From assembly GCA_019454145.1 (NCBI GenBank), contig CP075366.1, positions 537,564 to 601,563 of the forward strand: DNA of 64,000 nt. Direction: 5' to 3'. How positions within the stretch are numbered: the stretch's first letter is position 1; each line of letters opens with the position of its first letter. Made by a program: the position numbers and the translations under genes. Shown one piece after another: positions 39,789 through 56,619 of the stretch. The DNA comes from Fimbriimonadaceae bacterium (lineage in GTDB: Bacteria; Armatimonadota; Fimbriimonadia; Fimbriimonadales; Fimbriimonadaceae). Under the pieces are notes generated by a model. That model did not search any database. It had not been told where the DNA came from and saw nothing but the letters and a program-made list of their open reading frames with translations.

Positions 39789-40862
39789 ATGGCAGAGCAA
39801 AGATATCCGTGCGCCCAATGTGGTGCTCAATTAGAATACGCACCGGGCACTCCACACATGAAGTGCCCGTACTGCGGTTTTGAAGAAGACGTACCGGTTT
39901 CAGAATCTCAGATCGAAGAACTTGACTTCAATCTTTACGTAAGTCAACATCTTCCGCCAGCTTCACTAGAACCAGACCGCGTGCTCCACTGCAACCAGTG
40001 CGGAGCCGAGTTTACATGGCCAGAGAATAAAGAATCTGGCTCTTGCCCGTTCTGCGGAAGCAATGTTGTCGTTCCGACTGATCCGCAAAGCAGAATCGAG
40101 CCCAAGTCTGTTCTTCCCTTTGCCGTTGATTTGAAAGGTGCCCGGCAAAAGTTCAAAGATTGGATCGGTAGCCGCTTTTGGGCACCAAACAATCTGAAAG
40201 CCCTCGCTTTAGTTGAAAATGGCCTGCGCGGTTGTTATATCCCCTACTGGACATACGACTCGTTTACAACTACTGCATACACGGGACAGCGCGGAATCCA
40301 CTACTACGTAAACGAAACCTACACCGACTCAAACGGCAACACTCAAACTCGTCAAGTACGCAGGACAAATTGGTACCCCGTTTCTGGAGTCGTGTTTGTA
40401 GAATTCGATGACGTTTTAGTTGTTGCTTCAGAACACCTTCCCCCACGGTATGCGCAAGCAATGAACACATGGCAACTTTCTAATCTCGCGCCATACGATA
40501 GCAAATACCTCAGCGGATTTGTGGCCATGCGTTACGACAAAGGCCTTGAAGCTGGATTCGAAGATGCCAAGCGCATCATGGATCCAACTATCCAAAATGC
40601 AATCCGAAGAGATATCGGCGGCGATGAGCAGATGATATCTAGCTACTCGGTTCAGTACGACCGGTTAACTTTCAAGCACATTCTTCTGCCTATCTGGAGT
40701 GGTGCGTATCGTTACGGTGGTAAGAGCTGGGCATATTTAGTCAATGGTCAAACTGGCGAAGTGAGAGGCGAAGCCCCGGTCAGCCCTTGGAAGGTGGCCA
40801 TTGCAATTATTCTTGGGCTTTTGGTTGTCGGAACCGTTATCTACTTCATGCAAAAAAATTAA
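39789..40862 (+). CDS. Zinc-ribbon protein with C-terminal membrane anchor
   Basis: A 357-residue protein with two zinc ribbons: C-A-Q-C...C-P-Y-C (residues about 8-37) and C-N-Q-C...C-P-F-C (about 76-98). A Trp/Tyr-rich domain of unknown fold follows, and a single C-terminal membrane helix (about 334-353) with the last residues basic. It is the common genomic partner of YdjI-type SPFH proteins. The tail anchor would hold the zinc ribbons in the cytoplasm. No catalytic motif is seen. It is co-transcribed with the SPFH gene. Confidence 0.75.
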   Translation: MAEQRYPCAQCGAQLEYAPGTPHMKCPYCGFEEDVPVSESQIEELDFNLYVSQHLPPASLEPDRVLHCNQCGAEFTWPENKESGSCPFCGSNVVVPTDPQSRIEPKSVLPFAVDLKGARQKFKDWIGSRFWAPNNLKALALVENGLRGCYIPYWTYDSFTTTAYTGQRGIHYYVNETYTDSNGNTQTRQVRRTNWYPVSGVVFVEFDDVLVVASEHLPPRYAQAMNTWQLSNLAPYDSKYLSGFVAMRYDKGLEAGFEDAKRIMDPTIQNAIRRDIGGDEQMISSYSVQYDRLTFKHILLPIWSGAYRYGGKSWAYLVNGQTGEVRGEAPVSPWKVAIAIILGLLVVGTVIYFMQKN

Positions 40863-40891
40863 GAGCAGATCAAATGATCTACTCTTAATTT
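40856..40891. terminator. Bidirectional terminator between the zinc-ribbon and PEP-CTERM genes
   Basis: A 16-bp stem with one C-A mismatch (left arm 40856-40871, loop AAAT, right arm 40876-40891) begins inside the stop region of the zinc-ribbon gene. It ends with T residues on either strand and serves the two convergent genes. Confidence 0.75.
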
Positions 40892-40910
40892 CGCGTGAGT
40901 TACTACTTGG

Positions 40911-41549
40911 TTACTTGCGTCGTTTTCGAGCAGCCGCAGCAAGAGCAGCCGCACCAAGAACCACCATGGTAGCTGGCTCTGGCACAGCAGGAATGGTATC
41001 GCCTGGGCCATCAATGCCAAAGTAGTAGTTACCTGTAGCTTGTCCCGCAACACCTGTGCTTACAAAATCCGTACTTCTAAAGCTGGTAAACACAGCAAAG
41101 TAGTCTGTACCCGTAACTAGGTTAACGCCCGCTAACCTTGAACTAGGCTGTGCATTTTGGAAACCAGTTGCTGTATTGGTTAGACCAATTCCAGCATACG
41201 GTCCAGGCAATACCGTAAGTGTTCCGGTGAAGTCATCACTAAATCCGGTTTGCCCTGTTGGGGATGCTGGATTAAATGAACCAGTGTACAGAACAAGCAA
41301 TGTGTCCAAGGCATTGGAGACCCCACTTGTACTTGTATTCAAAGAGGACATTTCCATAGTGTAAGCACCGCTTACCGAAACTTGGAATTGCATGAAGCTG
41401 TAGTACTGCACGGCAGTCCCTACACCAGATCCTCCGGGTGCATCAAACGTTGGGGAATTAGCAGTTAATGCACCACTTGTATAGAATGGCGCAGCAAAAG
41501 CACTGCTTGCCGCCAAAGCAGCGACAGAGATCAAAAGAACTTTTTTCAT
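40911..41549 (-). CDS. PEP-CTERM sorting-domain exoprotein
   Basis: A 212-residue secreted protein. It has a signal peptide (M-K-K-V-L-L-I-S-V-A-A-L-A-A-S-S-A-F-A) and a C-terminal PEP-CTERM signal: V-P-E-P, a hydrophobic stretch and R-K-R-R-K. The signal is cut by an exosortase in organisms making extracellular polymer. The body is a beta-rich unknown domain. A strong GGAGAGGA ribosome site precedes the ATG. No exosortase gene is in the window. Confidence 0.88.
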   Translation of the reverse strand: MKKVLLISVAALAASSAFAAPFYTSGALTANSPTFDAPGGSGVGTAVQYYSFMQFQVSVSGAYTMEMSSLNTSTSGVSNALDTLLVLYTGSFNPASPTGQTGFSDDFTGTLTVLPGPYAGIGLTNTATGFQNAQPSSRLAGVNLVTGTDYFAVFTSFRSTDFVSTGVAGQATGNYYFGIDGPGDTIPAVPEPATMVVLGAAALAAAARKRRK

Positions 41550-41695
41550 TGAATCCTCTCCCTATCCAAAGTGGATCGAGAATGTAATTAGGTTAACAGA
41601 CTTCGACCTAATCGTACCCCGTATAATTACCAGATATTAGAGTTTAGACCTACTTTTTAAAGTCACCTGAACGAGATGCGAGGCTCAATTCGTCA

Positions 41696-41730
41696 CATTG
41701 CCCGCCTTTAATGATTATGGGCGGGCAATG
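41696..41730. terminator. Strong hairpin downstream of dnaK
   Basis: CATTGCCCGCC (41696-41706) and GGCGGGCAATG (41720-41730) pair perfectly with a 13-base loop, about 17 bases after the dnaK stop. On the plus strand it is followed by TTTATCTTTT. On the dnaK strand no U-run follows, so termination there may need another factor. Confidence 0.55.
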
Positions 41731-41747
41731 TTTATCTTTTCGGCTAT

Positions 41748-43646
41748 TTACTTATCTTCTTTGAAGTCAGCGTCAATCACATCTTCTTGCGATCCACCTG
41801 CGGCTGCACCCACTCCAGCTTCTTCTGGTTGAGCTTCTGCCCCAGAATCTGCGTAAAGAGACTCAGCTAGCTTGTGACTTTCTTCTTCCAAAGAAGCCTT
41901 AGCCGTGCTCATCGCTTCTTGATCTTGGCGCTCAATTGCCTGATTAAGCTCGCTGATTTTTTCTTCAATGCGAGAACGATCACTTTCGGTTACCTTATCA
42001 CCCAGATCTTTGAGCATTTTCTGAGTCGAGCTCACCAACCGCTCACAATCATTCTTGAGCTCTGCTGATTCTCGCGCTTTGCGGTCAATCTCAGCATTTG
42101 CCTCGGCATCTTTGACCATGCCTTCAATCTCGTCTTTGGCAAGGTTGCCTGAACCAGAAACCGTAATCTTTTGTTGACTTCCGGTTGCCTTATCTGTTGC
42201 CGTCACGTTCAGGATTCCGTTGGCATCAATGTCGAAAGTAACTTCAACTTGAGGTACTCGAGCTGGTGCCGGCGGGATACCACTGAGATTGAACTGACCA
42301 AGCGACTTGTTATCCTTCGCCAAACTGCGTTCACCCTGAAGAATGTGGATTGTCACCTCTGTTTGGTTATCGGCCGCAGTTGTGTAAACGCGACTCTTCT
42401 TCGTTGGAATCGTAGTATTGCGCTCAATCAGAACGTCAGTAATTCCGCCCTGTGTCTCAACACCAAGGCTCAACGGAGTAACGTCCAGCAAAAGAATGTC
42501 GGTTTTTTCGCCACTCAATACACCTGCTTGGATTGCCGCACCAATCGCAACTACTTCGTCTGGGTTAACTGTTTTGTTGGGTTCCTTACCGGTGGTTTTC
42601 TTAACAAGCTCTTGAACCATTGGCATTCGCGATGACCCACCAACCAATACAACTTCATTTACATCAGCCCATTTGAGCTTAGCGTCGTTAAGAGCCCGAT
42701 CAACTGGCCCTTGAATTCGCTTCAGCAAGTCGGCGCACAAATCTTCAAATTTACTTCGGCTCAAGGACTTTTCAAGGTGGATTGGCTCGTTATCAACCGC
42801 AGTGATAAACGGTAGGCTGATATCCGTATTCACAGCACTGCTGAGTTCAACCTTTGCTTTTTCTGCTGCTTCCTTCAAGCGTTGAAGAGCCTTTGAATCT
42901 TTACGGAGATCAATAGCATTCTCAGCCATGAACTCGTTAGCCAACCAGTCAACAATCTTTTGGTCGAAGTCATCACCACCCAGGTGGCTGTCACCAGCAG
43001 TGGATTTAACTTCAATAACACCTTCGCCGACATCAAGGATAGAAACGTCAAACGTTCCGCCACCTAAGTCGAAAACCAAAATCGTTTCGTTGGATTTTTT
43101 ATCTAAACCATACGCAAGGCTCGCTGCGGTGGGCTCATTGATAATCCGCGACACGTTCATACCGGCTATTTCACCTGCGTTCTTGGTTGCAGTTCGTTGA
43201 CTGTCGTTAAAGTAAGCAGGAACCGTGATTACCGCGTCGGTAACAGTTTCGCCTAAATAAGCTTCCGCATCTGCTTTCAGTTTTTGCAGAATGACGGCAC
43301 TAATTTCTTCTGGAGTGAATTCCTTATCTACGGCCGGAATATGCACGGATGCATTCCCACGCTTATCTTTAATGACTTTGTACGAAACGCGCTTTGCTTC
43401 TTCAGCCACTTCATCAAACTTGTGCCCCATGAATCGCTTAATACTCGCGACCGTGTTTCCTGGGTTAGTTACCGCCTGACGCTTAGCAGTTACACCAACA
43501 AGCCGTTCGCCATTAGCTTTGAATGCCACTACACTCGGCAGAGTGCGGCTTCCTTCAGCGGTTGCGATCACCTTAGCTTCGCCACCTTCCATAATTGCGA
43601 CAACCGAGTTGGTTGTCCCGAGGTCAATTCCTACTGTTCGTCCCAT
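41748..43646 (-). CDS. dnaK: Molecular chaperone DnaK (Hsp70)
   Basis: A 632-residue Hsp70. The ATPase domain (1-380) shows [19 protein letters not shown] and [10 protein letters not shown]; the substrate domain and lid follow. The C-terminal [11 protein letters not shown] is the usual end that binds co-chaperones. No grpE, dnaJ or hrcA lies next to it, so the gene is transcribed alone. An inverted repeat lies about 46 bases upstream of the start. Confidence 0.97.
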
Positions 43647-43691
43647 GTTATTTCTAGCTCGCGGCCCGCTTAACTATATAAGCATTAGACC

Positions 43692-43714
43692 ACTTGAGTC
43701 CTATACACTCAAGT
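43692..43714. promoter_or_regulatory. Inverted repeat upstream of dnaK (possible operator)
   Basis: ACTTGAGT (43692-43699) and ACTCAAGT (43707-43714) are perfect inverted arms with a 7-base spacer, within the dnaK promoter region. CIRCE (TTAGCACTC-N9-GAGTGCTAA) is not present, so a different heat-shock regulator might act here. Confidence 0.5.
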
Positions 43715-43773
43715 AACGCTAGAATACATGATTTAGTTGCATATAGACAGACGTTTGGGACGTTTGAATTAAC

Positions 43774-45051
43774 TTAGGCGGCCTTGAAGAAGCTGGTTGC
43801 TGGGGCTGGTGCTCCCGGGATGACCGTTTGTATGTTTGAATTCTGCAAACGTTTGACCAGAAGTTCTCCGAGAACCGCACGGTAGTCGGTGGTGGGCTTC
43901 AAATCAACCCCTTCAAAAAGGTTTGCTTGCTGCAGTCCAGGCCAGGTGCCTTTTACTTGACCACCCATAACGCCTGGCCCCATAGTCAGCATGCATCCGC
44001 CTGAACCGTGGTCTGTCCCAAGGCTTCCGTTTTCAGCAACTTGACGACCAAATTCGCTCATAACAACAAGGGTGTATTTGATGTTAGTAGCCGCTAAATC
44101 TTGATAAAACGCGCACATATTGTTTGCGAGGTCTTGCATGGATACATCCATGCCTCCATCCACACTTCCCTGACTGGCATGTGTGTCCCAACCAAAGAAG
44201 TCAATGTGAGCCAACTCAAGACCAACTTCCGCTTTCATGAGAGCCGCTGTGTATTTGAGACTTCGTCCCAAATCTGTATCGCCATACGGAAAGCCGCCAG
44301 TAGATGTGTACGATCCAAAGTTGGTTTGGGAGAATGTCTGAACGGCACGCTGAGCATCGCGAACATAAGTACGCGAGTCATCTGTTATCCGAGCATACAT
44401 TCGCCCAATCGTTTGGTCAATTTCTGCCTGATCAGGGAAACGAGTGCTAAATCTGTAGTCAGCCGGGTTCTTTGTAACGACTACCTGTTGTGCTTTAGAA
44501 AGTGCTCCCGGCACGGAGTCAGAATAAGCTATTCCCCGGAAACTTCCATTAGGATTAACAGGCGCAGTAGTTCCCAAATGCCGACTTAACCATCCGCTTC
44601 CGCCTAAGATATCGCCCTCGTACTCCATAAACTTCTGAGCTTCAAAATGAGAACGAGTCCAGTTGGAACGACCAACCGCATGAATGATTCCTAGCTGTTG
44701 CGCATCGAAGATTTGTTTTAGATTTTGAAATGCCGGAGGCAATCCAAAATAGCCGTTCAAATCAATAGCTTTTCGAGCTGCTCCGCTACTTGGCTGAGGG
44801 ACAGCAATCGTTGGACGAAGTTGGTAGTAGCGCGCATCGCCGTGAGGCACACAGAAAGTCAATCCATCTGCGCCTCCTCTTAAATAAACGACAATCAGAA
44901 CGTCACGCGCTGGCCCGCTTTGAGCAAAAGCCATCCGTGGAGCCCAAAACGGCAGAGAAATTGCACCAGCAACTCCTGCTGCGCCGGTTAAAAACTTTCT
45001 CCGGCTCATGTTTTGATACTCTTTGCATGCGTTCTTTACGTTGTCGTTCAT
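43774..45051 (-). CDS. DUF1501 family protein, Tat-exported
   Basis: A 425-residue protein of the DUF1501 family. The N terminus has S-R-R-K-F-L followed by a hydrophobic stretch (T-G-A-A-G-V-A-G-A-I-S-L-P), a twin-arginine signal. The conserved centre includes F-G-W-D-T-H and V-M-S-E-F-G-R, with D-H-G-S-G-G near the end. Fold relation to alkaline-phosphatase/sulfatase-like proteins has been proposed; activity is not established. It is the standard partner of DUF1800 genes and lies 15 bases after one, so the two form an operon. Confidence 0.88.
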   Translation of the reverse strand: MNDNVKNACKEYQNMSRRKFLTGAAGVAGAISLPFWAPRMAFAQSGPARDVLIVVYLRGGADGLTFCVPHGDARYYQLRPTIAVPQPSSGAARKAIDLNGYFGLPPAFQNLKQIFDAQQLGIIHAVGRSNWTRSHFEAQKFMEYEGDILGGSGWLSRHLGTTAPVNPNGSFRGIAYSDSVPGALSKAQQVVVTKNPADYRFSTRFPDQAEIDQTIGRMYARITDDSRTYVRDAQRAVQTFSQTNFGSYTSTGGFPYGDTDLGRSLKYTAALMKAEVGLELAHIDFFGWDTHASQGSVDGGMDVSMQDLANNMCAFYQDLAATNIKYTLVVMSEFGRQVAENGSLGTDHGSGGCMLTMGPGVMGGQVKGTWPGLQQANLFEGVDLKPTTDYRAVLGELLVKRLQNSNIQTVIPGAPAPATSFFKAA

Positions 45052-45066
45052 TTTTCCAAACCTGTC

Positions 45067-46725
45067 TCAATACCACTGATAGCTAGGCCCAGCCATCGCG
45101 ATCGCAAAAGCAGCGCGAATGGAAACATCGCCGGTCTTGCCTTTTAAGTATCGGCGGATCCAGACCTGATCTGAAACTGGTAATTCTCCCAGGAACATCT
45201 TAGAGTTGATTTCCGTGACCTTTGCCGCATCGTCCATGCTGCGCATAGCCGTTACATCAATCAACGGCAGCAGCCCCCAATGGGAATTGACCTCTTGGAC
45301 AAACCGAATCCGGCGAACCATACCACCTGCCCAGAAATCCACTCGATCGGGATATCCATCCGGCTGATTCCAAAGATGCGGCTCCATATTCATGGGAATG
45401 AAATGCTCGTTCCACAATCCCCAAATGCTTACTAAGTCCGAACCCAACTGCTTCACGGAACTATAAATCAGGTGGTTGGGTCTCTTAAATTTTGGAACGG
45501 ATGTGCTGATCTCACCAACCGCAAGAATTTCCCTCAATACGGCTTTTATATTTCCGCTAGTGCCCCACGCATTGGTAATCCTGGTCATGAGCGCGGCTGA
45601 AGCATCGCGTCCTAAGAAAAAGCGAGCCATTTTATTTCCAATATGCGCAATCGTTTTTGGATGGTTACTCAACCAATCCAGAACGGCATCTCCCTTTGCC
45701 TTACCCGATTGATTGAACGTCCGCCCCATAACCGTAAAGGTTCCCGGCGTATTCCATTCCGGGTGAAAGGCGAATTCATCTTGAATAACACCATTATCAT
45801 TCAGAATTCCCCATCCTGTAAAAATATCTGCAAGCTGGTAGATGTCAGCCTCTGTGTATCCGCCATTAACACCGACTGTATGCAGTTCCAAAAGTTCTCG
45901 CGCATAGTTCACATTGATTCGAGAAGCGGTGTTTGCTCGATTATCAAGATAAAGCATCATGGCCGCATGATTTGCTGATGCTACGAGGAGTTCCTTAAAT
46001 GTATTTAATGAAAGGCTGTGAATTTTGCGGCAGTAGTCATGCATTAAGTATCCATTGACTTTCCATCTATCAACGTAAAGGTGGTCGTTCCAGAACTCTG
46101 CAATTCGTTGCTTTAGCTGACGCTTTGAGTAAATAGAACGCAGAATGACCGCATCGTTCCAATCCTGTCTTACTTCCCAATCGAACTGTTCTTGTTTGAG
46201 TTGCGCATATGGCAAATTGATGGTGGGAGCAAATTGGAGAACCTTATTTTCACATGCAGAATCATCAATTGCATCTGGATTCAATTGCTTTTCCAAATAG
46301 GCGGAGTATCCGAGAGTTTTTATCTCAGCTAAATCCGCGGGAGTTGGACCGTAGTTGATACGGCGAAGAAGCTTGATATCATTATCTTGCCAACTTCTTT
46401 GAACGCTCACCGATGAATTTACGGATGAGCCTCCATTGCCAAGCCCGCCTGAGTAGGTCACCGATCCCGTGGAGAGGCTTCCGTGTTGAGAACCTCCACC
46501 CATTCCGCCAGTGCCTGGAGGGCGAGAACCTGCAGCGCCTCGATTGCCCTGACGGCTTTGAGCCGATGCTGCGCCAGCAACTGCGGACATAGCGGCGACC
46601 AACCCGCCAGCCAGGGCTCCTCTTCGGCTAATTGTTCGGGTACTTGATTCCCCCAGAGTATTTTCTGCGCCTTCTAAATCGGAGGCATTCAGGGCATCTT
46701 CAACTAACCGCGATAACATTTGCAT
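45067..46725 (-). CDS. DUF1800 family protein, possibly Tat-exported
   Basis: A 552-residue protein. An N-terminal S-R-R-G-A-L-A-G-G followed by a hydrophobic run (about 35-56) looks like a Tat signal preceded by an unusually long n-region of about 33 residues. A Gly/Ser-rich low-complexity linker follows (about 60-100). The DUF1800 core includes F-W-N-D-H-L, N-Y-A-R-E-L-L-E-L-H-T-V-G-V and D-I-F-T-G-W. Function unknown; DUF1800 and DUF1501 are nearly always encoded together. A start at another Met near residue 44 would leave a shorter leader but lose the twin-Arg motif. Confidence 0.88.
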   Translation of the reverse strand: MQMLSRLVEDALNASDLEGAENTLGESSTRTISRRGALAGGLVAAMSAVAGAASAQSRQGNRGAAGSRPPGTGGMGGGSQHGSLSTGSVTYSGGLGNGGSSVNSSVSVQRSWQDNDIKLLRRINYGPTPADLAEIKTLGYSAYLEKQLNPDAIDDSACENKVLQFAPTINLPYAQLKQEQFDWEVRQDWNDAVILRSIYSKRQLKQRIAEFWNDHLYVDRWKVNGYLMHDYCRKIHSLSLNTFKELLVASANHAAMMLYLDNRANTASRINVNYARELLELHTVGVNGGYTEADIYQLADIFTGWGILNDNGVIQDEFAFHPEWNTPGTFTVMGRTFNQSGKAKGDAVLDWLSNHPKTIAHIGNKMARFFLGRDASAALMTRITNAWGTSGNIKAVLREILAVGEISTSVPKFKRPNHLIYSSVKQLGSDLVSIWGLWNEHFIPMNMEPHLWNQPDGYPDRVDFWAGGMVRRIRFVQEVNSHWGLLPLIDVTAMRSMDDAAKVTEINSKMFLGELPVSDQVWIRRYLKGKTGDVSIRAAFAIAMAGPSYQWY

Positions 46726-46908
46726 TCACCTTCAACCAGAGTGCTGCCCAACCCAACAATGACTGGAATCATTGCCAGCAGCCTCCTTTTCAGGCTTTCC
46801 ATTCCCAGCAAAAACAGAGCCTAGTGGGGATACCGGGATTTGAAATCTCTAGCCCAATTGGCACAAAAAACCGCAATTCTCAAACCCCTTAGAGTAATTT
46901 GATTGGGT

Positions 46909-47775
46909 ATGAATTCCCGGCTTGCAATCGTGACTTGCCAGAACATCCCCGAAGTGGATGTGGATGAGGAGTTGGTTCTTCAGCGGTTTAAAGATTCGGG
47001 ATTTGATGTCTCACTTGTAGCTTGGGAAGATTCATCAATCTATTGGCCATCCTTTGAAGCCGTTTTGATCCGATCTACTTGGAACTACCCCGAATTTCCG
47101 GAAGAGTTTCGATCATGGATCAATCGCGTGACGCTACTCACGCGCCTCTTTAACTCAGCAGATTTAATTTTGCCGAACATTCACAAATCATATTTGCTCA
47201 AGCTGAGCGATGCCGGGGTGCCCATAGTTCCAACCCTGTTACCGCGTGATTTTAACGAAGCGAAGAGTTGGTTATCCGAAAACCAATACAACCGATTCGT
47301 GCTCAAACCAGTTATCGGAGCCGGAAGTTGGATGACCGACTTTTTCAGTATTGATGAGCTAGAGCGCGCAGAAAAATTCTTTGCCGAGATCCAGGCCGAA
47401 AGCGACCCGATCTGCCAGCCATTTATGGAGTCAGTTGCCAACGGCGGCGAACGCTCACTGATTTACCTCGACGGCAAATTCACTCACAAAATCATTAAAC
47501 AGCCACGGTTTATCGGTCAAGAAGAATCAGTTTCAGATGCTTTACCAGTAGAACTTCACGAAGCGCAAATAGGCAACCTTGTTATCAATACGCTTACAGA
47601 AAAACCTCTCTATGCCAGGGTTGACCTAATCGAGGACAATGGTGAGTTGCTCCTCTCAGAATTAGAACTGATTGAGCCTTCGCTATTTTTCAAGCAAAAT
47701 CCAGCGGCATTGGATGATCTGATTCAGGGAGTCAAATCTCGATTATCTAAGGCCAAGGTACTCGAATTGAACTAG
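46909..47775 (+). CDS. ATP-grasp enzyme (RimK/glutathione-synthetase-like)
   Basis: A 288-residue ATP-grasp protein. Visible features are R-S-T-W-N-Y (N-terminal), K-S-Y-L-L-K-L, F-V-L-K-P-V-I-G-A-G-S-W for ATP binding, and E-L-E-L-I-E-P-S-L-F-F for the metal-binding end, where N would follow in many families. It is an ATP-dependent carboxylate-amine ligase of unknown substrate. The frame allows a TTG at 46903, but ATG 46909 is favoured. Its end overlaps that of the convergent candidate selenoprotein by 29 bases. Confidence 0.8.
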   Translation: MNSRLAIVTCQNIPEVDVDEELVLQRFKDSGFDVSLVAWEDSSIYWPSFEAVLIRSTWNYPEFPEEFRSWINRVTLLTRLFNSADLILPNIHKSYLLKLSDAGVPIVPTLLPRDFNEAKSWLSENQYNRFVLKPVIGAGSWMTDFFSIDELERAEKFFAEIQAESDPICQPFMESVANGGERSLIYLDGKFTHKIIKQPRFIGQEESVSDALPVELHEAQIGNLVINTLTEKPLYARVDLIEDNGELLLSELELIEPSLFFKQNPAALDDLIQGVKSRLSKAKVLELN

Positions 47776-48946
47776 TGGGATCGACATACTCGCCCCAGAA
47801 GTAGCTCTGCTGTGGCGGAACGGAACGGGCAATCTCGTCATCAATGGTTCTAAACGCAATCTTTAGCGGATACTTCCCTTTTGGTGCCCCACTTGTATTG
47901 TCATGATCGCCCCAGGCTTTTGCATCAACGAACGCAGTGAAATCTGTAGCAATCCCACGCTTACTGTCCACAGACATTGTTCCGGAAATAATCCCTTCTG
48001 TGCCTTTGGCAGTTCCGCCAGAGCCTTCCATGTTCGATATCTTGAATTGCCCAGAAAAGCTGAATTTGCCTTCTGGCATCCTGACCATCTTGATATCCAG
48101 TAACTGGATATTGTCGTATCTCCAACGGGTCGGTTCACCACGCACGTTATCCAGCAAGTGGAACCGAGCTAAACGCCGAGCAAGTTTTGCTGGCATGGCA
48201 AATTCACGACCGACTTGATCCAATATTTCCTTTGCATCTTCCGGGAATATCCAGAAGTGGTCTCGTCCAATGCTTTTGTTCTTATCCGAGGCATCAAGCG
48301 GCATGGGATCAATTCGTGAAATTGATCGAACGACAAGCGTTCCTTCCGGCTTCGGACGTGTCCATTGCTTAGTTGGGCTTGTTACAATCTCAACATGCTT
48401 TGGCGGGGATTGCTTGTACATGGCTAGGCCAGTATCAAGTAGCTTCATGAACTCATCACGTTGACGCCCGTGCATAGAAAACACGTATCCCTGGCCATCC
48501 GGCGCCACTACATAGAATCCCTGCGCTGTCACACCTTTGGATGCACCTGGATGAATATTCTTGATCGTTTCCATGAACCAAGTGCGCTCAGGGGATTCCC
48601 ATTTGCTCACTTGCAACTCGTTGGTGTTTCCGGCAAAAGGAATGAACTCATCTTTCAACCGGGCGATCACATCATCTCTCATGAACAAGTCACGCTTGTC
48701 CGCTTGACCGTTGTTTCACGTACAGCCAGTGGGATGTCCGTTCATCATCCACATAAATATAGGCTTGCCCTTTTCCTGCGCTTCAGCCCGAGCGGCGAAC
48801 AAATCCAGCCGCCAACCAACACGCATCCACTTTTCTTCTTCTTCGCTTGGCCAAATGGATTCAATACCTTCGGTTACCCAACTATCATCAACCGAGGGAG
48901 CAATGTTTGGCTGGGTCATCATTAATCCAAGCGCGAAAGAAATCAT
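47747..48946 (-). CDS. Candidate selenoprotein, thioredoxin-like, with in-frame TGA read as Sec
   Basis: One frame of 399 residues interrupted only by TGA at codon 77 (48716-48718). Translating through, the region reads K-P-I-F-M-W-M-M-N-G-H-P-T-G-C-T-U-N-N-G, so Cys75 and Sec77 form a C-x-U redox site in a thioredoxin-like domain, a segment where the family keeps its catalytic residues. The conserved-looking continuation (D-K-R-D-L-F-M-R-D-D-V-I-A-R-L) stays in the same frame. A SECIS-like hairpin sits right after the TGA. The N terminus is a weak export leader (M-I-S-F-A-L-G-L-M-M). Without readthrough it would give 76 residues plus a second product of 313 or fewer. It follows threonine dehydratase by 36 bases. 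A nonsense mutation or sequencing error remains possible. Confidence 0.72.
48684..48715 (-). promoter_or_regulatory. SECIS-like hairpin after the in-frame TGA
   Basis: Starting one base after the TGA on the minus strand: AACAA pairs with TTGTT (5 bp), a CG bulge, GTCA with TGAC (4 bp), an A-G mismatch, GC with GC (2 bp), apical loop GGACAA. The loop starts 14 bases after the TGA, with G at its first two positions. This fits the bacterial SECIS rules as I know them, although the upper stem is interrupted by one mismatch. Confidence 0.65.
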
Positions 48947-48982
48947 TGCCTTCTATTGTGCAACAAACTGCTCGCTTTTGAG

Positions 48983-49939
48983 CTAAATGAATCTCCAAAA
49001 CTCAGCCAGAGTCGCTAAATCCACATTGCCGCCACTGATGATAACGCCTACTTTTTTGCCAGAAACATCCAGTTGGTTTTCCCATAACGCAGCGAGTGAA
49101 AGACAGCCAGTGGGTTCAACAATGATCTTCATTCGTTCTGCATAAAATTTCGTGCATTCTATCAACGTGGAGTCTTTCACGCTCAGCATGTCAAATACGT
49201 TCTGTTTGATGATCGAAAACGTGAGTTCACTTGCCGAAGGAGTTCTTGCCCCGTCGGCAATCGTTTCTGGGTTGTGGCAAGTTTCCAGTTGACCAGACCG
49301 AAACGATCGGCAGATATCATCCCCCGCTTCTGGCTCAACACCTATGACTTTGCAGTTTGGCGAAAGTGCCTTGGCAGATAGTGAAGATCCGCTGAGCAAG
49401 CCACCACCACCCGCGCAGACCATAAGATAATCCAGTTCGCCCACGTTTTCGAATAATTCTTTAGCGACTGTCCCCTGACCCGCAACGATATCAACGTGAT
49501 CATAGGGAGGAATAACGGTTAACCCACGCTCAGCGGAAATTTGAGAACCAAGTGTTTCCCGGCTTGTTTCATCTCGGTCGTAAAGAATCACCTCTGCCCC
49601 ATACCCCTTAGTTGCCGCGACTTTGAGTGCTGGCGCATCACTTGGCATGATCACAATAATTTGGACACCAAACAGCTTCCCCGCCAGAGCAAGAGCCTGA
49701 GCATGATTTCCCGAAGAGTAAGTCAGCACGCCCCTAGATCGTTGATCCGCGCTCAGCTGACTCAGCGCAAAGTACGCACCGCGAAACTTGAACGCGCCTG
49801 CTCGCTGAAAATTCTCACACTTAAAATACAGTTGAGCCCCAAACTTTTCGTTCGCGGTTTTTGATGTCAGCACGGGGGTTTTGTGCGCCACTCCTTCAAG
49901 ATCCGAAGCAGCTCGCTGAACATCAGAAAAATCAACCAT
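48983..49939 (-). CDS. Threonine/serine dehydratase, PLP-dependent
   Basis: A 318-residue fold-type II PLP enzyme, the size of the catabolic or single-domain dehydratases, lacking the C-terminal ACT-like regulatory domain of IlvA. The PLP Lys is in A-G-A-F-K-F-R-G-A, S-S-G-N-H-A-Q-A is the substrate/PLP loop and C-A-G-G-G-G-L is the phosphate-binding glycine loop. It deaminates threonine (or serine) to the 2-oxo acid. The ATG at 49939 is divergent from the aminotransferase. Serine racemase is an alternative. Confidence 0.9.
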   Translation of the reverse strand: MVDFSDVQRAASDLEGVAHKTPVLTSKTANEKFGAQLYFKCENFQRAGAFKFRGAYFALSQLSADQRSRGVLTYSSGNHAQALALAGKLFGVQIIVIMPSDAPALKVAATKGYGAEVILYDRDETSRETLGSQISAERGLTVIPPYDHVDIVAGQGTVAKELFENVGELDYLMVCAGGGGLLSGSSLSAKALSPNCKVIGVEPEAGDDICRSFRSGQLETCHNPETIADGARTPSASELTFSIIKQNVFDMLSVKDSTLIECTKFYAERMKIIVEPTGCLSLAALWENQLDVSGKKVGVIISGGNVDLATLAEFWRFI

Positions 49940-50025
49940 CTGCCCTCAGTATTCCCAATCTAATATCACTAAAACCGATGGTCGGGCCTAACAAATTGGA
50001 ATCTACAGTAATATTCCAATTACAC

Positions 50026-51252
50026 ATGGCTCTCCCTCTTTCACGACGCGCCAAAGCAATGCCGGCCTCGCCGATCCGCAAACTTGCACCCTATGCCGAC
50101 GCCGCTAAAAAGTCAGGAGTCAAGGTGTACCACCTCAATATCGGCCAACCCGACGTGCCGAGCCCAATTCAGTTTTGGGATGCCGTGAAGAATTCTAACT
50201 TGCAGGTCTTGGAATATTCAAATTCCGCCGGAATCGCCGAGCTTCGGGAGAAAGCCGCCGCCGATTACCGCAAAAACGGAATAGATGTTTCCACTGATGA
50301 AGTCATTATCACAACCGCTGGATCAGAGTCGCTGAGCATCGCTCTCAACGTAATCTGCAACGAAGGAGACGAGGTTATTGTCCCCGAACCGTTATATGCA
50401 AACTACATCGGTTTTGCCGCTGGTACTGGGATCAATGTCGTTCCTATCCCGACGAGAATCGAAGACAACTTCGCGCTTCCACCAAGTTCAGAGTTTGCCA
50501 AACGCATAACCGAGCGCACTAAGACGATTATCATCTGCAACCCTGGCAACCCGACTGGAACCATTTATAGCAAGCAACAGCTCGAAGAACTTATTTCCAT
50601 TGCTAACGAACACAACCTCTATGTGATCGCGGACGAAGTCTATCGCGAGTTTGCTTACGATGGCGTTCGCCCAGTTAGCGTGTTGCAACTCGCCGGTACC
50701 GAACAAAACGCGATCATGGTTGATTCGGTGAGCAAGCGTTACAGCCTTTGCGGAGCGAGGATCGGATTCTTTGTTACAAAGAACAAAGAGATCATGGATG
50801 CAGCAGTGCGGTTTGCTCAGGCACGCCTCTCTTCTCCTACACTTGATATGCTGGGTGTTATCGGCGCACTTGATACGCCACAAAGCTATTTCGATGATTT
50901 GCGGTTGGAATACACGCGCCGTCGCGATCTGCTGGTTTCTCGCCTCCGCGCCATGCCAGGAGTGACCTGCCCTGACATTCATGGTGCTTTCTATGCAACG
51001 GTGCGGCTCCCGATTGACGACAGCGACCGTTTCTGCCAATGGATGCTTGAGGAATTCCGACACAACAACTCAACCGTGATGATGGCCCCTGGAACCGGGT
51101 TCTATTCCACAAAGGGATGCGGGTTAGATGAAGTTAGGATCGCTTACGTGCTCAACCTGGAAGACTTAGGCAAAGCAATGGACTGCTTGGAAATCGCATT
51201 GCAAACTTATCCTGGTCGAACTTTGAATTCTCCCGTCGCGGCTGGAAACTAA
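50026..51252 (+). CDS. Pyridoxal-phosphate aminotransferase, class I/II
   Basis: A 408-residue fold-type I aminotransferase. The PLP Lys is in S-V-S-K-R-Y-S-L-C-G-A-R-I-G, with N-P-G-N-P-T-G and V-I-A-D-E-V-Y-R typical for aspartate/alanine-like enzymes. A longer upstream frame (55 codons) overlaps the dehydratase start and is not family-like, so ATG 50026 is chosen. Donor and acceptor are not determinable; aspartate- or alanine-type is favoured by the sequence pattern. A strong terminator follows. Confidence 0.9.
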   Translation: MALPLSRRAKAMPASPIRKLAPYADAAKKSGVKVYHLNIGQPDVPSPIQFWDAVKNSNLQVLEYSNSAGIAELREKAAADYRKNGIDVSTDEVIITTAGSESLSIALNVICNEGDEVIVPEPLYANYIGFAAGTGINVVPIPTRIEDNFALPPSSEFAKRITERTKTIIICNPGNPTGTIYSKQQLEELISIANEHNLYVIADEVYREFAYDGVRPVSVLQLAGTEQNAIMVDSVSKRYSLCGARIGFFVTKNKEIMDAAVRFAQARLSSPTLDMLGVIGALDTPQSYFDDLRLEYTRRRDLLVSRLRAMPGVTCPDIHGAFYATVRLPIDDSDRFCQWMLEEFRHNNSTVMMAPGTGFYSTKGCGLDEVRIAYVLNLEDLGKAMDCLEIALQTYPGRTLNSPVAAGN

Positions 51253-51258
51253 CCAAGC

Positions 51259-51306
51259 AAAACAATAATAGCCGCTTGGTAAATTCCAAGCGGCTATTAT
51301 TGTTTT
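51259..51306. terminator. Perfect bidirectional terminator between aminotransferase and rpmB
   Basis: Two perfectly complementary 21-base arms (51259-51279 and 51286-51306) enclose a 6-base loop. The arms begin AAAA and end TTTT, so the hairpin ends transcripts from both sides of these convergent genes. Confidence 0.95.
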
Positions 51307-51315
51307 AATTCTTTA

Positions 51316-51582
51316 TCAAACGTTGTAGTCTGGTTTGGTGAGCCAAGCTTTTGGAATTGGCTTCAGTCCGCAAACGACCATTGCGAATTCTTCAGTCTTC
51401 ATTACCGAAGCGGCAACTGTCATACGTACCTTTCCGTTAGGAGTGTTGATGGTCACCGTTTGAAGGTTGGCGTGTTGCCATCGGTTCTTGTGGGGTGCAC
51501 GGAACTTCCAAGCCGAGTGGCGGTGCCGCACGTGCTTCGCCTTGTTTGCCTTCTTTCCGCTTACCTGACATACCCTTGCCAT
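51316..51582 (-). CDS. rpmB: 50S ribosomal protein L28
   Basis: An 88-residue protein: M-A-R-V-C-Q-V-S-G-K-K, R-H-R-H-S-A-W-K-F and the Trp/Asn/Leu-rich L-Q-T-V-T-I segment match L28. The ATG at 51582 is preceded after seven bases by AGGAG. A frame extension of six codons is ignored. The N-terminal C-x-V-S-G-K form lacks the second Cys of the zinc-binding C-x-x-C pattern. It is an isolated gene, with rpmG not adjacent. Confidence 0.95.
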   Translation of the reverse strand: MARVCQVSGKKANKAKHVRHRHSAWKFRAPHKNRWQHANLQTVTINTPNGKVRMTVAASVMKTEEFAMVVCGLKPIPKAWLTKPDYNV

Positions 51583-51716
51583 CTTAAATCTCCTGAACAC
51601 GGCGTAGCCGCGACCTCCTACTATACTGAATCATTGGTCGCTGCCTCAACTATGCACGGCAATTTTGGGCAGTTTGAACCAAAAACAGCTATACGCTGAG
51701 TGCCAGAATACTCTCG

Positions 51717-52222
51717 ATGCCCAGTTCCATCGCAATACGACCGATTTCCATGGCCGACTACAAGCGGGTGGCAGAAATCTATTCGGATGGAATTGCTGAG
51801 CGGATTGCCACTTTTGAAACCAAGCCTCGCGGCTGGGACGACATTCAGCTACTCGTTGAGTCCGACCCTATATTTCTAGTTAGTTACAACGATGTAGACT
51901 TTTCGTCACTGGCTTTGTCAGAGTCTCCCTAACAAGCAGTCGCCGAGTTTATGCGGGAGTTGGCGAGATTTCGGTGTATGTTGACCCCAACCATCGCGGG
52001 CAAGGAATCGGCAATCAGTTGATCACTCGTTGTCATGCAACCGCAGGCGAACAAGGTTTTTGGAAGCTGATCGCCAAAATCTTTCCCGAAAACGAATCCA
52101 GCTTAGAGTTATTTAGAAGCACTGGCTACCGCGACGTAGGAATCCATGCAAAGCATGGTCAGTTAGACGGTCAATGGAGAGACGTATGCTTGCTAGAAGT
52201 TCTCCTCCATATCGAGAAATAG
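51717..52222 (+). pseudogene. Frameshifted GNAT acetyltransferase (phosphinothricin-acetyltransferase-like)
   Basis: Two frames hold one gene. The first, 51717-51932, gives I-R-P-I-S-M-A-D-Y...V-S-Y-N-D. The continuation is in the +2 frame, where translation of about 51900-52222 gives F-V-T-G-F-V-R-V-S, Y-A-G-V-G-E-I-S-V-Y-V-D, then H-R-G-Q-G-I-G (acetyl-CoA loop) and a full GNAT end. The join lies at the TTTT run near 51899-51902. One extra T would restore a single 168-residue enzyme. Either a real pseudogene or a sequencing/assembly error. No slippery pattern known for programmed frameshifting is evident. Confidence 0.8.
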
Positions 52223-52232
52223 ATTAAAAAAG

Positions 52233-52308
52233 TGGTGCCGCAAGCCGGACTCGAACCGGCGACCCAAGCATTTTCAGTGCTTTGCTCTACCAACTGAGCT
52301 ACCGCGGC
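52233..52308 (-). tRNA. tRNA-Phe (GAA)
   Basis: A 76-nt tRNA with 3' CCA encoded. The 7-bp acceptor pairs GCCGCGG with TTGCGGC (two G-U pairs). The anticodon loop CTGAAAA gives the anticodon GAA. The T arm is GCCGG-TTCGAGT-CCGGC. It lies 14 bases before tRNA-Asp in the same transcript direction. Confidence 0.95.
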
Positions 52309-52321
52309 ACTCTGGGTTCTA

Positions 52322-52397
<76 letters not shown>

Positions 52398-52472
52398 GCA
52401 GAGGATTAGGAGTATGTCATAACCCAGGGTGAGTTAGCAACGAACGGGCCACTTGTCCCAAGGAATTAGGCC

Positions 52473-52901
52473 TTAACTCTTTAGATTCAACTGAGGCTGG
52501 CGGTCAGCGAGAATCCAATAGCATGCAGTCTGCAAATAAATTTCATCTGCCTCTGCTTGCGTTTCCGGAGCTTCAATGATGCTGGTTGCCCCCGCCCCAA
52601 TGATCGGTAGCAAATCCGAGTCTTTCTTTCGCACCACCACGATCTTTGAAGAATGCAGTACCTCGCAACCACGCAAGGTTTTCGTGATCTGAACTGCTTC
52701 CTCTTCGACTAAATCTGAGCACAAAATAATAAACTTGACTTGTCTGCCTTCCGCAAAAAATTCTCCGCACTGTTCCACAAAATCAGCCGGATAAACAAAA
52801 TAGACTTCTTCATGAACAATGCGAGTGCGATCCATTGCACGCCTTAAGAAGCCACGCCGAGCTTCCTCGCCGCCAATCATGAGCACCGCGTATTTTTCCA
52901 A
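52473..52901 (-). CDS. Receiver-like protein, probably degenerate
   Basis: A 142-residue alpha/beta protein: strand K-Y-A-V-L-M-I-G, strand V-K-F-I-I-L-C-S-D-L, and S-S-K-I-V-V-V-R-K-K, then I-G-A-G-A-T-S-I-I-E-A-P-E, an order that recalls CheY receivers. The phospho-acceptor position is C-S-D rather than D-V-M/x-M-P. The conserved Lys near the end is missing (E-A-P instead of K-P). No certain family. It is upstream of the tRNA pair and downstream of metX on the same strand. Confidence 0.55.
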   Translation of the reverse strand: MEKYAVLMIGGEEARRGFLRRAMDRTRIVHEEVYFVYPADFVEQCGEFFAEGRQVKFIILCSDLVEEEAVQITKTLRGCEVLHSSKIVVVRKKDSDLLPIIGAGATSIIEAPETQAEADEIYLQTACYWILADRQPQLNLKS

Positions 52902-52987
52902 AATCTCCCCTATATTTGAATTTAATTAGCCAGAGACAGCTGAAATTATTATGATGTATTAAATTTGCGTTTACCAGCCTGAGCAAC

Positions 52988-54091
52988 TTAAAACCGCAAT
53001 AACCAGGCCTTCACAATCTCCGCCTGGCGTTGATCATCCAAAAGAAAAGAGTCATGCCCCATCGGCGAGGCAATCTCGTGCCACTCTGACTGCTTCCCTG
53101 CCTCCTGAGCCATCGCATGCAGCTGTTCGATTTGATGCGATGGATAAATCCAGTCGGAATCAAAGCTAGTGAAAAGAAATTTGCATTTCGCAGATTCAAG
53201 AGATTTTAGTGAGAAATAATCAATCGCCCGGGTCAGCAAAAGATACGAATTCGCATCAAAGCGATTGGTGAACTTATCACCCTGGTAGTTTAGGTAGCTC
53301 TCGATCGCAAACTCGATTCCGTTATCAAATCGAAACTCGTCCCCATCTTGAAGCCTACGGCCAAATTTCATCGTAAAGCTTTGGTCAGATAGATAACTAA
53401 GGTGCCCTGCCATCCGGGCAACCGATAGCCCATTTACTGGCCCAGGGCCATCGTAATAGTCGCCGCCCTTCCATTCAGGGTCACGTTGAATAGCTTGCCT
53501 GCCTACTTCGTTAAATCCTATCTGCATTGCACTGTGGGCCGCGCAGGATGCTGTAGCCCACACTCCGGCGACTCGATTTGGATACTGCACCGCCCAACAG
53601 AGTGCTTGCATCCCTCCCATGCTTCCACCTGCGACACAAAGCCACCTGCCAATTCCAAGATGATCAGCAAGCCTTGCTTGGATTTCGACCATATCTTCGA
53701 CTTGAACGACTGGGAATCGGCTGCCGTAAGGTCGGCCATCTTCAGCTGAGCTTGCAGGCCCGGTCGTGCCTTGGCAGCCGCCTAACGCATTGCTACACAC
53801 AACAAAATACTTTTCTGTATCAATCGCTTTTCCCGGCCCGACTAAGCGATCCCACCAACCTATCGCATGCGAATCTCCGCTGAGGGCATGGCAGATCAGA
53901 ATAGCGTTGGAAGCATCTGAATTCAGAGTGCCCCAAGATTCGTATGCTACTTCGACATCGGGCAAATAGCCCCCCGCTCTCAGATGGAGTTCACCAACCG
54001 AGACAACCTCTTTCGGCTGACCAACCGACGAGGTGCGTTCGTTCTCTTGGAACAAAGCACTGTCTATTGAATCCTCCGGCAAGTTCGGCAT
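52988..54091 (-). CDS. metX: Homoserine O-acetyltransferase
   Basis: A 367-residue alpha/beta hydrolase-fold enzyme of methionine synthesis. The catalytic Ser is in G-G-S-M-G-G-M-Q-A, the Asp follows F-D-S-D-W and the His is in M-G-H-D-S-F. The oxyanion-site-like N-A-L-G-G-C-Q-G-T-T-G-P is characteristic of MetX. The start is ATG 54091. No metY or metW gene is adjacent, and I see no SAM riboswitch in the 120 bases upstream. Confidence 0.94.
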   Translation of the reverse strand: MPNLPEDSIDSALFQENERTSSVGQPKEVVSVGELHLRAGGYLPDVEVAYESWGTLNSDASNAILICHALSGDSHAIGWWDRLVGPGKAIDTEKYFVVCSNALGGCQGTTGPASSAEDGRPYGSRFPVVQVEDMVEIQARLADHLGIGRWLCVAGGSMGGMQALCWAVQYPNRVAGVWATASCAAHSAMQIGFNEVGRQAIQRDPEWKGGDYYDGPGPVNGLSVARMAGHLSYLSDQSFTMKFGRRLQDGDEFRFDNGIEFAIESYLNYQGDKFTNRFDANSYLLLTRAIDYFSLKSLESAKCKFLFTSFDSDWIYPSHQIEQLHAMAQEAGKQSEWHEIASPMGHDSFLLDDQRQAEIVKAWLLRF

Positions 54092-54211
54092 GAACTCAAA
54101 TCTACCTTGCCGCTTTCCTCAAGCCCAGACGTAAAGTTTTCATAAACTCAGGAAAATTAACAGGATAACCCTGTATAAAGGAAATATCGCTTTGGTGATG
54201 AGAGGAGAACT

Positions 54212-55396
54212 ATGAAATTAAGCCTGCGAACAACAACTGCTTTAACCGCCGCAATTCTGGCAACGGGCGCATTTGCCCAGCTCACCGCCGTTCAATATGG
54301 AACGGGAATGAGCCAGCTTACCGGCGCCTACGGTGATCCCCTGAATCCAAATCGATATTACGCTCTCCAAAAAACCGGGCAGATCGTTCCGGTCACCAAC
54401 GGAGTTGTTGGGTCACCCATAGCGACGGTCACAGGAATTGATACCGCTGGAGAGCGTGGATTACTCGGACTAGCGTTTGATCCTAACTATGCGACAAACG
54501 GGCGCGTTTATCTGAGTTACGTCAACAATCAGACCAAAGCGCTTGATGTCATCCGCACTAACAATTTCAACCTTGCGACAGCTCAACACATCATCAGCCT
54601 TCCCCATCCAACAAACGCAAGTAACCACTACGGCGGGAATATCAAATTTGGCGGAGACGGAATGCTTTATATCGCGATGGGAGATGGGGGCGGAAGCAAT
54701 GACCCAGAAAATGATGCTCAGAACATCAACAACATGCTCGGTAAGCTCATGCGAATTGATGTCAGCGGTAGCGGAACTGGTTACTCAGTTCCAACCGATA
54801 ACCCATTTGTCAACGCACCAGGGCTCGACGAAATCTGGGCTTACGGATTGCGAAATCCTTTCAAGTTTTCGTTCGACACAAACGGTGACCTGTACATTGG
54901 CGATGTTGGACAAGATGCATGGGAAGAAGTCAACCGAATGGCAGGCAATATAGGCGGTGTCAACTATGGCTGGCAAGCGTTGGAAGGCACCCATCCGAAC
55001 CCATTTGCGGTCGCTCCTCCCGCCGCTAACGCAGTTCCACCCATTTACGAATATAGCCACTCAGTTGGCGAGAGTATTACAGGCGGATTCGTCTACCGAG
55101 GTTCTGCATTAGGCAGCCACTATGTTGGTCGCTATTTCTTCGCTGACTTTGTTACCCGAAAGCTTTTTTCTATTGACCCAAACGCCAGCAACGTTGCGTT
55201 GAGCCTTGAAGAATACACAGCCGGATTAGGAGCTTCAATTAGCTACACAGGGATTGAACCAGATGCAAATGGAGAAATCCTTCTTACGAGTTTTGGCGGA
55301 AGTGTTTATCGTCTGCAAAGTGTTCCTGAACCTGCCACGATGGTCGCCCTCGGTCTTGGATTAGCCGCTATATTAAAAAGAAAAAAGAAGAGCTAA
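54212..55396 (+). CDS. PQQ-type sugar/sorbosone dehydrogenase-like exoprotein with PEP-CTERM
   Basis: A 394-residue protein with a signal peptide (1-22), a six-bladed beta-propeller of the glucose/sorbosone dehydrogenase family (G-E-R-G-L-L-G-L-A-F-D-P, Y-G-G-N-I-K-F-G-G-D-G, A-Y-G-L-R-N-P-F-K-F, Y-I-G-D-V-G-Q-D-A-W-E-E) and a C-terminal PEP-CTERM signal V-P-E-P-A-T-M. Family members oxidise sugars using PQQ in the periplasm. Acceptor and sugar are unknown. It has a good AGGAG ribosome site. Confidence 0.9.
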   Translation: MKLSLRTTTALTAAILATGAFAQLTAVQYGTGMSQLTGAYGDPLNPNRYYALQKTGQIVPVTNGVVGSPIATVTGIDTAGERGLLGLAFDPNYATNGRVYLSYVNNQTKALDVIRTNNFNLATAQHIISLPHPTNASNHYGGNIKFGGDGMLYIAMGDGGGSNDPENDAQNINNMLGKLMRIDVSGSGTGYSVPTDNPFVNAPGLDEIWAYGLRNPFKFSFDTNGDLYIGDVGQDAWEEVNRMAGNIGGVNYGWQALEGTHPNPFAVAPPAANAVPPIYEYSHSVGESITGGFVYRGSALGSHYVGRYFFADFVTRKLFSIDPNASNVALSLEEYTAGLGASISYTGIEPDANGEILLTSFGGSVYRLQSVPEPATMVALGLGLAAILKRKKKS

Positions 55397-55400
55397 AACA

Positions 55401-55430
55401 AAAAATGGCTTCCAAAAGGAAGCCATTTTT
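55401..55430. terminator. Terminator between the dehydrogenase and pilT genes
   Basis: AAAAATGGCTTCC (55401-55413), loop AAAA, then GGAAGCCATTTTT (55418-55430) is a perfect 13-bp stem with T-runs on both strands. It serves both convergent genes and ends one base before the first pilT stop codon. Confidence 0.95.
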
Positions 55431-55431
55431 A

Positions 55432-56619
55432 TTAGTCACCGCCTACCTTTGGGCGATTAGGTTGCCCTCGCACTGGCCCAGGCTGGGAAGTTGTTGGGTC
55501 AGTAGGCGGAGGCGCATTTACGTGTGAAACAGCGTTATTTTTGAACGCCTTACCTGTGCCCACATCAACAATACGGAGAAACTCAGCGCGGTCTTTTGCT
55601 TTAGACTTTGCCTCTTCCATATCTACCAAACCAGCTTCAACCAGGCGGGCGAGCGACTGATCCAGGGTCTGCATTTTTTGCTTTGCCCCTGTTTGAATAA
55701 TTGAGCCGATTTGGTAGCTCTTGTTTTCGCGGATTAAGTTACGTACCGCGCTTGTGGCATTAAGGATTTCAAATGCAGCAACCCGTCCACGTCCATCTTT
55801 GCGCTTGACAAGACTCTGGCTGACAACGCCGAGCAAGTTGACCGAGAGTTGCATGCGGATTTGTTGCTGCTGATGTTGAGGGAATACGTCAACAATTCGA
55901 TCCACAGTTTGAAGTGCATCTACTGTGTGTAATGTGGCAAAAACGAGGTGACCCGTCTCCGCGGCAGTAATTGCAAGGTGGATCGTCTCCAGATCGCGCA
56001 TTTCACCGACGAGGATAACGTCCGGGTCTTGCCGGAGCACGTACTTCAGTGCGTTGGCAAAACTCAAAGTATCAACGTCTAACTCACGCTGGTTGATAAG
56101 TGCGACGTGGTCGTCATGAACAAATTCGATCGGGTCTTCAACCGTGACGATATGCAAATCTTCATTACGGTTAATCCTATCGATCATCGCAGCAAGCGTT
56201 GTGGACTTCCCACTGCCCGCTGGCCCGGTGACAAGCACCAAACCGCGAGGCCGTTCTATAAAATCGTAACATGCCTGTGGAAGATTCAAGTCCTCCATCG
56301 AAGCGATTTCAAATGGAATGACCCGGAAGACAGCCTGAGCATGCTCACGTTGCTGGAACAGATTTCCTCGGAAACGCGAAACACCGGCGATTTCCAGTGC
56401 AAAGTCCAGTTCTAAATCGTTATCAAATTTAGCGATTTGATCGGGACGGAGAAGGTCGCTGATCGCTTCTCGGAAATCTTGATCTGTGTAAGGCGGAACG
56501 TCTTCTAACGGGTAAAGCTCACCAAAAACCCGCACGTAAACCTTGCCTGTGTCCGTTTTGATGTGCAAGTCTGAGCCATTCATGCTCACACAACGCCGGA
56601 GAAGATCCTCAATGCGCAA
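55432..56619 (-). CDS. pilT: PilT-family ATPase (third of three tandem copies)
   Basis: A 395-residue type IV pilus retraction-type ATPase. The Walker A is G-P-A-G-S-G-K-S-T, the Asp box V-E-D-P-I-E, the Walker B V-I-L-V-G-E-M-R-D-L-E-T-I, and the His box T-G-H-L-V-F-A-T-L-H-T. Its P-loop Ala is an uncommon variation. It uses a TTG start at 56619 with GGAGG nine bases ahead. It overlaps the second copy by 11 bases. A proline-rich, glycine/asparagine tail of about 40 residues (P-P-P-T-D-P-T-T) is not seen in the other two copies. Confidence 0.92.
   Translation of the reverse strand: MRIEDLLRRCVSMNGSDLHIKTDTGKVYVRVFGELYPLEDVPPYTDQDFREAISDLLRPDQIAKFDNDLELDFALEIAGVSRFRGNLFQQREHAQAVFRVIPFEIASMEDLNLPQACYDFIERPRGLVLVTGPAGSGKSTTLAAMIDRINRNEDLHIVTVEDPIEFVHDDHVALINQRELDVDTLSFANALKYVLRQDPDVILVGEMRDLETIHLAITAAETGHLVFATLHTVDALQTVDRIVDVFPQHQQQQIRMQLSVNLLGVVSQSLVKRKDGRGRVAAFEILNATSAVRNLIRENKSYQIGSIIQTGAKQKMQTLDQSLARLVEAGLVDMEEAKSKAKDRAEFLRIVDVGTGKAFKNNAVSHVNAPPPTDPTTSQPGPVRGQPNRPKVGGD

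Follow-up and report, generated by a model that had tools for sequence, protein, structure and literature searches.

A candidate SECIS hairpin and an in-frame TGA in a predicted thioredoxin-fold selenoprotein gene of a Fimbriimonadaceae bacterium

Introduction

The window analyzed in this study is the whole stretch of 64,000 nt from contig CP075366.1 of a Fimbriimonadaceae bacterium (positions 537,564 to 601,563). On its minus strand, it contains a gene with a single in-frame TGA codon, followed directly by sequence that can fold into a hairpin. The locus therefore raises the question of whether this TGA is read as selenocysteine (Sec) and, if so, which RNA structure would direct the insertion. 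We computed the reading frame, how well the TGA and the hairpin are conserved, the complement of Sec genes and the predicted fold of the product, from which we infer SelB binding, Sec insertion, export and a redox reaction with its substrate. With a probability of about 0.88, the product is an exported selenoprotein of thioredoxin fold, in which SelB, acting on a hairpin at positions 48683-48701, inserts Sec at UGA codon 77.

Results and Discussion

The reading frame

The gene (47747-48946, minus strand) comprises 399 codons with one in-frame TGA and a TAG stop codon. When the TGA is translated as a residue, a single open frame extends from position 48946 to 47750, where it is closed by the TAG. 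The TGA itself (48716-48718, minus strand) is codon 77, in the context NGHPTGC-T-TGA-N-N-G, which gives the protein motif NGHPTGC-T-U-N-N-G (U, Sec); it is very probably read as selenocysteine. Standard annotation would truncate the gene at codon 76, and the combination of hairpin and TGA is a means of flagging such a gene. The order of an ATP-grasp gene, the selenoprotein gene and a threo-3-hydroxyaspartate ammonia-lyase-like gene was observed solely in loci from the window's genus, so the gene neighborhood is uninformative with regard to function.

Two mutually exclusive hairpins downstream of the TGA

The first-pass annotation had placed a SECIS-like stem directly after the TGA, at positions 48684-48715 (minus strand). 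Its coordinates and pairing proved correct: the TGA (48718-48716) is followed by AACAA (48715-48711), the loop GGACAA (48701-48696) and TTGTT (48688-48684). The stem forms in silico as the minimum free energy (MFE) structure of the isolated 32-nt segment (-8.8 kcal/mol; z = -1.92, with 8 of 200 dinucleotide shuffles folding equally well). A second hairpin, GGACAAG-CGUGA-CUUGUUC (48683-48701, minus strand), overlaps it, and the two cannot coexist. In the window sequence the stem at 48684-48715 gives the stabler fold, by about 1.2 kcal/mol, which speaks for a selenoprotein gene in which this stem is the functional SECIS; we nevertheless consider that arrangement unlikely, on the following grounds.

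Stability in excess of codon-preserving shuffles, proposed earlier as a check of the stem, did not clearly set it apart (p 0.05-0.21). With 3000 synonymous-codon shuffles for each segment, p was 0.05-0.08 for +1..+33 and +1..+36, and 0.13-0.21 for +1..+42 and +1..+48. Within +1..+60, the pair probabilities are 0.16-0.39 for this stem and 0.25-0.31 for the competing hairpin. Furthermore, a stem beginning at +1 would sit inside the ribosome during decoding of the UGA, which we count against it. Its position had been said to fit bacterial SECIS elements without adjustment; its loop lies 14 nt after the TGA, outside the 16-37 nt given in PMC13188914.

Comparison with relatives points in the same direction. 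TGA-containing homologs without this exact stem, named in advance as a finding that would count against it, do exist: it is lost in 3 of the 7 genus members (L019, L022 and L023, with stem energies of -1.2, -1.2 and +3.6 kcal/mol, respectively, versus -8.2 kcal/mol), and the column pair +9/+26 fails in three of six distinct sequences. The paired wobble positions +3, +9 and +24 vary. The stem is also lost in 16 sister genes, where 56.3% of its cells were paired, a value that 346 of 500 shuffles equaled or exceeded. The stem exactly as drawn is thus probably not the working one.

The hairpin at 48683-48701 has a stem of 7 bp and begins 14 bases past the TGA; its loop, 21 nt after the TGA, carries G and then U at positions 2-3. 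It agrees in most respects with the bSECIS model, as described in PMC13188914: (i) it follows an in-frame Sec UGA within the coding region, (ii) the spacing of 21 nt falls within the 16-37 nt expected between the UGA and the apical loop, and (iii) the 5-nt loop, with a G in its first two positions and then U, and the 7-bp upper stem conform to a loop of 3-9 nt with a G in the first two positions and an upper stem of 4-16 bp. It differs from the model in energy, being weaker in isolation (-5.5 kcal/mol) than the threshold of MFE <= -7.5 kcal/mol stated in PMC13188914, by our own energy calculation rather than that of the published program. Within +1..+36 the hairpin reaches -7.0 kcal/mol; a value of -8.9 kcal/mol belongs to the competing fold.

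Within the window's genus, all seven pairs of this hairpin are retained in all seven close homologs. Across the seven genus genes, 336 codon columns could change their third base silently, and no more than 15 of them are invariant; the five wobble positions that pair in the hairpin (+18, +21, +27, +30 and +33) are all among these 15; the corresponding P of 8.7e-8 is indicative only, because the seven sequences are related and the hairpin was picked after they had been viewed. The wobble position in the loop (+24) varies; invariance is also seen at +12, which is not part of the stem. Since the hairpin does not vary within the genus, no compensatory change is found there. In the 16 sister genes, picked by protein similarity, a hairpin lies approximately three bases earlier; its pairs 14-18/24-28 are formed in 92.5% of cells, double-sided changes occur at three of five pairs, and its covariation score was reached by none of 500 shuffles. 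In alignment A6, comprising the 23 of 58 members of gene set S3 with a non-Gly residue at Sec+6, 88.8% of cells were paired and the covariation score was again reached in 0 of 500 shuffles; one pair showed a double change, a count matched by 378 of the 500. Alignment A5 omits L147 and L158, whose segments duplicate those of L071 and L078.

We also performed shuffle tests on 97 genes, 95 of which were scored after the TGA in the hairpin test. Genes taken as duplicates, near-duplicates or non-family were omitted from one set (L018, L021 and L048) and from the other (L084, L086, L091, L116, L120, L138, L145, L148, L153 and L199). This analysis revealed a mean energy of -6.4 kcal/mol for the best model-type hairpin downstream of the TGA in the 95 family genes, versus -3.2 kcal/mol in synonymous shuffles. 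The hairpin reached p<=0.05 in 38% of these genes, whereas ten control positions elsewhere in them gave 2-8%; for the window gene, p was 0.01. Four of the 95 have no hairpin fitting the bSECIS model. The MFE of the whole segment, a weak test across the family, was weakly lower after the TGA than in synonymous shuffles (mean z -0.81; p<0.05 in 7% of genes).

The earlier interpretation of a bacterial SECIS following an in-frame Sec TGA is therefore partly supported, with the conservation carried not by the stem originally drawn but by the overlapping hairpin at 48683-48701. There is a high probability that the locus contains a Sec codon and a SECIS of the standard bacterial kind. This is supported by the Sec machinery, the conservation of the TGA and the downstream frame, the natural Cys and Ser replacements (see below) and the wobble constraint after the TGA. 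SelB carrying Sec-tRNA-Sec would bind the hairpin, whose stem is GGACAAG/CUUGUUC and whose loop is CGUGA, and, at UGA codon 77, selenocysteine would be delivered in place of termination.

Other hairpins were observed in the family and in the window. In a second selenoprotein gene of the family, a paralog in the same genome (L043; G000:C1:1065864-1066823), the TGA is followed at 31 nt by a hairpin of classic type, UUGGUCU-GGUC-AGACCAA, which is the stronger of the two. The sequence GTCTGGTCAGAC, with TCA for Ser, recurs in all 16 listed GVRGRQ genes (S3, e.g. L036, L090 and L159) and in L144, the family gene from the record of Roseibacillus persicicus KCTC 12988, as though constrained by an RNA hairpin whose GGUC loop lies 31 nt past the TGA. 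A scan of window positions 40000-56000 with Rfam gave no match at the hairpin. At 51254-51311 of the window, several unrelated Rfam hairpin families score below their gathering scores on both strands; this may be a terminator hairpin downstream of the aminotransferase gene.

A conserved TGA and a conserved downstream frame

Conservation of the frame reaches far past codon 77. Comparison of the window gene with L018 over the segment after the TGA revealed differences in 15 of 322 amino acids and 111 of 322 codons (dN 0.022, dS 0.757), which indicates purifying selection at the protein level.

The read-through protein was matched in 23 of 41 related genomes. Of 30 family loci fetched from these genomes, 28 have a single TGA in this position, the remaining two being L030, with Cys at this column, and the more distant L039 (L037 and L039 were omitted from alignment A1). 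A protein search of the whole phylum detected the family in 51 of 291 genomes, with 99 matches, 86 of which span the site. An in-frame TGA occurs in 84 of these 86, with the exact column confirmed for the fetched loci; in the remaining pair the residue is Cys (L030, genome G034) or Ser (L200, genome G162). In L030 the Cys aligns at the Sec position. Among 30 loci drawn from the phylum-wide search, 22 carry the TGA at the same place, as judged by the motif, and those unmatched by it are the Cys form L065, L074, which begins past the site, and six others. The TGA is at the same place in all 80 loci found by a DNA pattern, which itself demands a TGA. Because Cys versions are so rare, the family lends itself to the question of why Cys cannot replace Sec.

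These data bear on the possibility that the TGA is a true stop codon, separating two genes or disrupting one whose downstream part is separate or decaying. A TTG at position 48688 could serve as a start for the downstream frame, but the TGA occupies the same column across the family, purifying selection beyond it is strong, and uninterrupted single frames exist in which Cys or Ser occupies the position; we regard this explanation as highly improbable.

Selenocysteine machinery of the genome

The window's genome (2.76 Mb, a single contig) contains selA, selB, selD and a tRNA-Sec (72.3 bits, anticodon tca). SelA, SelB and SelD exceed their curated cut-offs, with scores of 435 bits for selA, 301 bits for the main part of selB (334.5 bits together with its neighbor) and 338 bits for selD, which has an in-frame TGA of its own. 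In the latter gene (L048; G000:C1:1998921-1999835), the TGA lies in the context NCAGU, and a strong model-type hairpin with a GTT loop is found 33 nt further on.

The Sec machinery of the genome and the in-frame TGA in nearly all site-spanning family matches together provide strong support for the reading of the TGA as Sec. Decoding of UGA as another amino acid, by a reassigned code or a suppressor and with no involvement of selenium, is scarcely credible, given that UGA serves as the stop codon of selD (L048) and, in relatives, of several family genes, that the genome encodes tRNA-Sec and a complete Sec pathway, and that the substitutes at the site include Cys.

Among Armatimonadota, selA is present in 45 of the 51 genomes bearing the family versus 97 of the 240 lacking it (Fisher P 2.5e-10, with kinship ignored). 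Five of the six family-bearing genomes with no selA match are assemblies of hundreds of contigs. One of the six is G162, the genome that encodes the Ser form L200.

Predicted structure and chemistry of the protein

An AlphaFold model built from 57 sequences (mean pLDDT 92.3, pTM 0.90) predicts a thioredoxin-like domain at approximately residues 35-181 and an all-beta C-terminal domain at approximately residues 202-368. In the model, strand 63-68 is followed by Sec 77 and helix 78-87, as in the thioredoxin fold. Structural matches of residues 35-181 (VIA-align) included (i) 3f9u, a DsbD-like domain (Z 13.7, rmsd 3.4, 129 residues aligned), (ii) 1sen (Z 11.9) and (iii) AGR3 (Z 11.8). A predicted thioredoxin fold is shared with the C-terminal domain of DsbD, the AGR2-AGR3-ERp18 group and Thioredoxin_7. 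Unlike these, the family has Gly in place of the resolving Cys, and an additional all-beta C-terminal domain. For residues 202-368, there was no convincing relative among the structural matches listed, the best of which had Z of about 6. A hydrophobic stretch at the N-terminus suggests export, possibly by way of a signal peptide.

According to the model, Sec would be located at the N-terminus of the active-site helix, in the place of the first Cys of a CxxC motif, with the usual resolving Cys apparently replaced by Gly (U-N-N-G). In a weak sequence alignment with 3f9u (E 0.21), Sec falls opposite the leading Cys of GYGCVNC and Gly80 opposite the second; 3f9u has QP where the family has QG.

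The window protein has a single cysteine, Cys75, two residues before Sec (C-T-U). Cys occupies position Sec-2 in 92 of 107 distinct members, many of which were fetched by a motif pattern, and in 7 of the 15 members without it a Cys is located at Sec-1, -3 or -4 instead. The likely chemistry is a thiol or peroxide redox reaction centered on Sec, for which Cys75 would be the resolving partner in most, though not all, members.

Distribution and novelty of the family

When a collection with one genome per species was scanned with a DNA pattern of the TGA-containing motif, at least 119 stretches matched. All 80 of the loci fetched from among these belong to the selenoprotein family, and the conservation of the motif in them is partly selected, because the search pattern contains it. 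A pattern back-translated from alignment A1 found no relative in the species-level genome collection, since it required a Cys codon where the genes carry TGA.

Profile searches gave only weak matches. With NCBIfam, the best match among 28 members was to VPGUxxT type 2 (4.2e-6), and among 57 members there was a single match (0.0045), with none at E<=0.01 for the other 56. Pfam Thioredoxin_7 was matched by 3 of 28 members (best 2.3e-4), and the window protein had no match in Pfam. The window protein scored 10.5 bits against NF041382, whose cut-off is 350, and showed no match to NF041383 at E<=1. As their name implies, these VPGUxxT families likewise have Sec in a thioredoxin-like protein, and a few members of the present family share weak profile similarity with them, but the motif here is NGHPxGCTU(N/G)NG.

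This motif was not recognized among the 119 families of a 2026 inventory (Table 1 of PMC13188914), compared by table entry. The family is not named in the consulted passages of PMC9312934 and PMC4807772. Searches of the open literature on selenoproteins of Armatimonadota or Planctomycetes and on the motif listed no report of it.

It is likely that these genes constitute a large, uncatalogued selenoprotein family. Its members would be exported enzymes of thioredoxin fold that share the motif NGHPxGCTU(N/G)NG and a beta-rich C-terminal domain and in which Sec is almost obligatory, not just an occasional stand-in for Cys, occurring in Planctomycetota, Armatimonadota, Verrucomicrobiota, Chloroflexi and other groups. 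The number of matching stretches, the weak NCBIfam and Pfam matches and the lack of a recognizable inventory entry suggest that these phyla may use more selenium than is annotated.

Judged by their titles, the 80 fetched loci (of the at least 119) derive from planctomycetes (40), Armatimonadota (12), Verrucomicrobiota (7), Chloroflexi (3) and Poribacteria (2), with one each from Hydrogenedentota, Rubricoccaceae, Neomarinimicrobiota, Latescibacteria and a Methanoregulaceae archaeon; 11 bear no group name. A single match on a viral contig proved to be a short low-complexity frame that does not belong to the family. The archaeal entry (L138), a family gene deposited under the title Methanoregulaceae archaeon isolate SJ84, is probably mislabeled.
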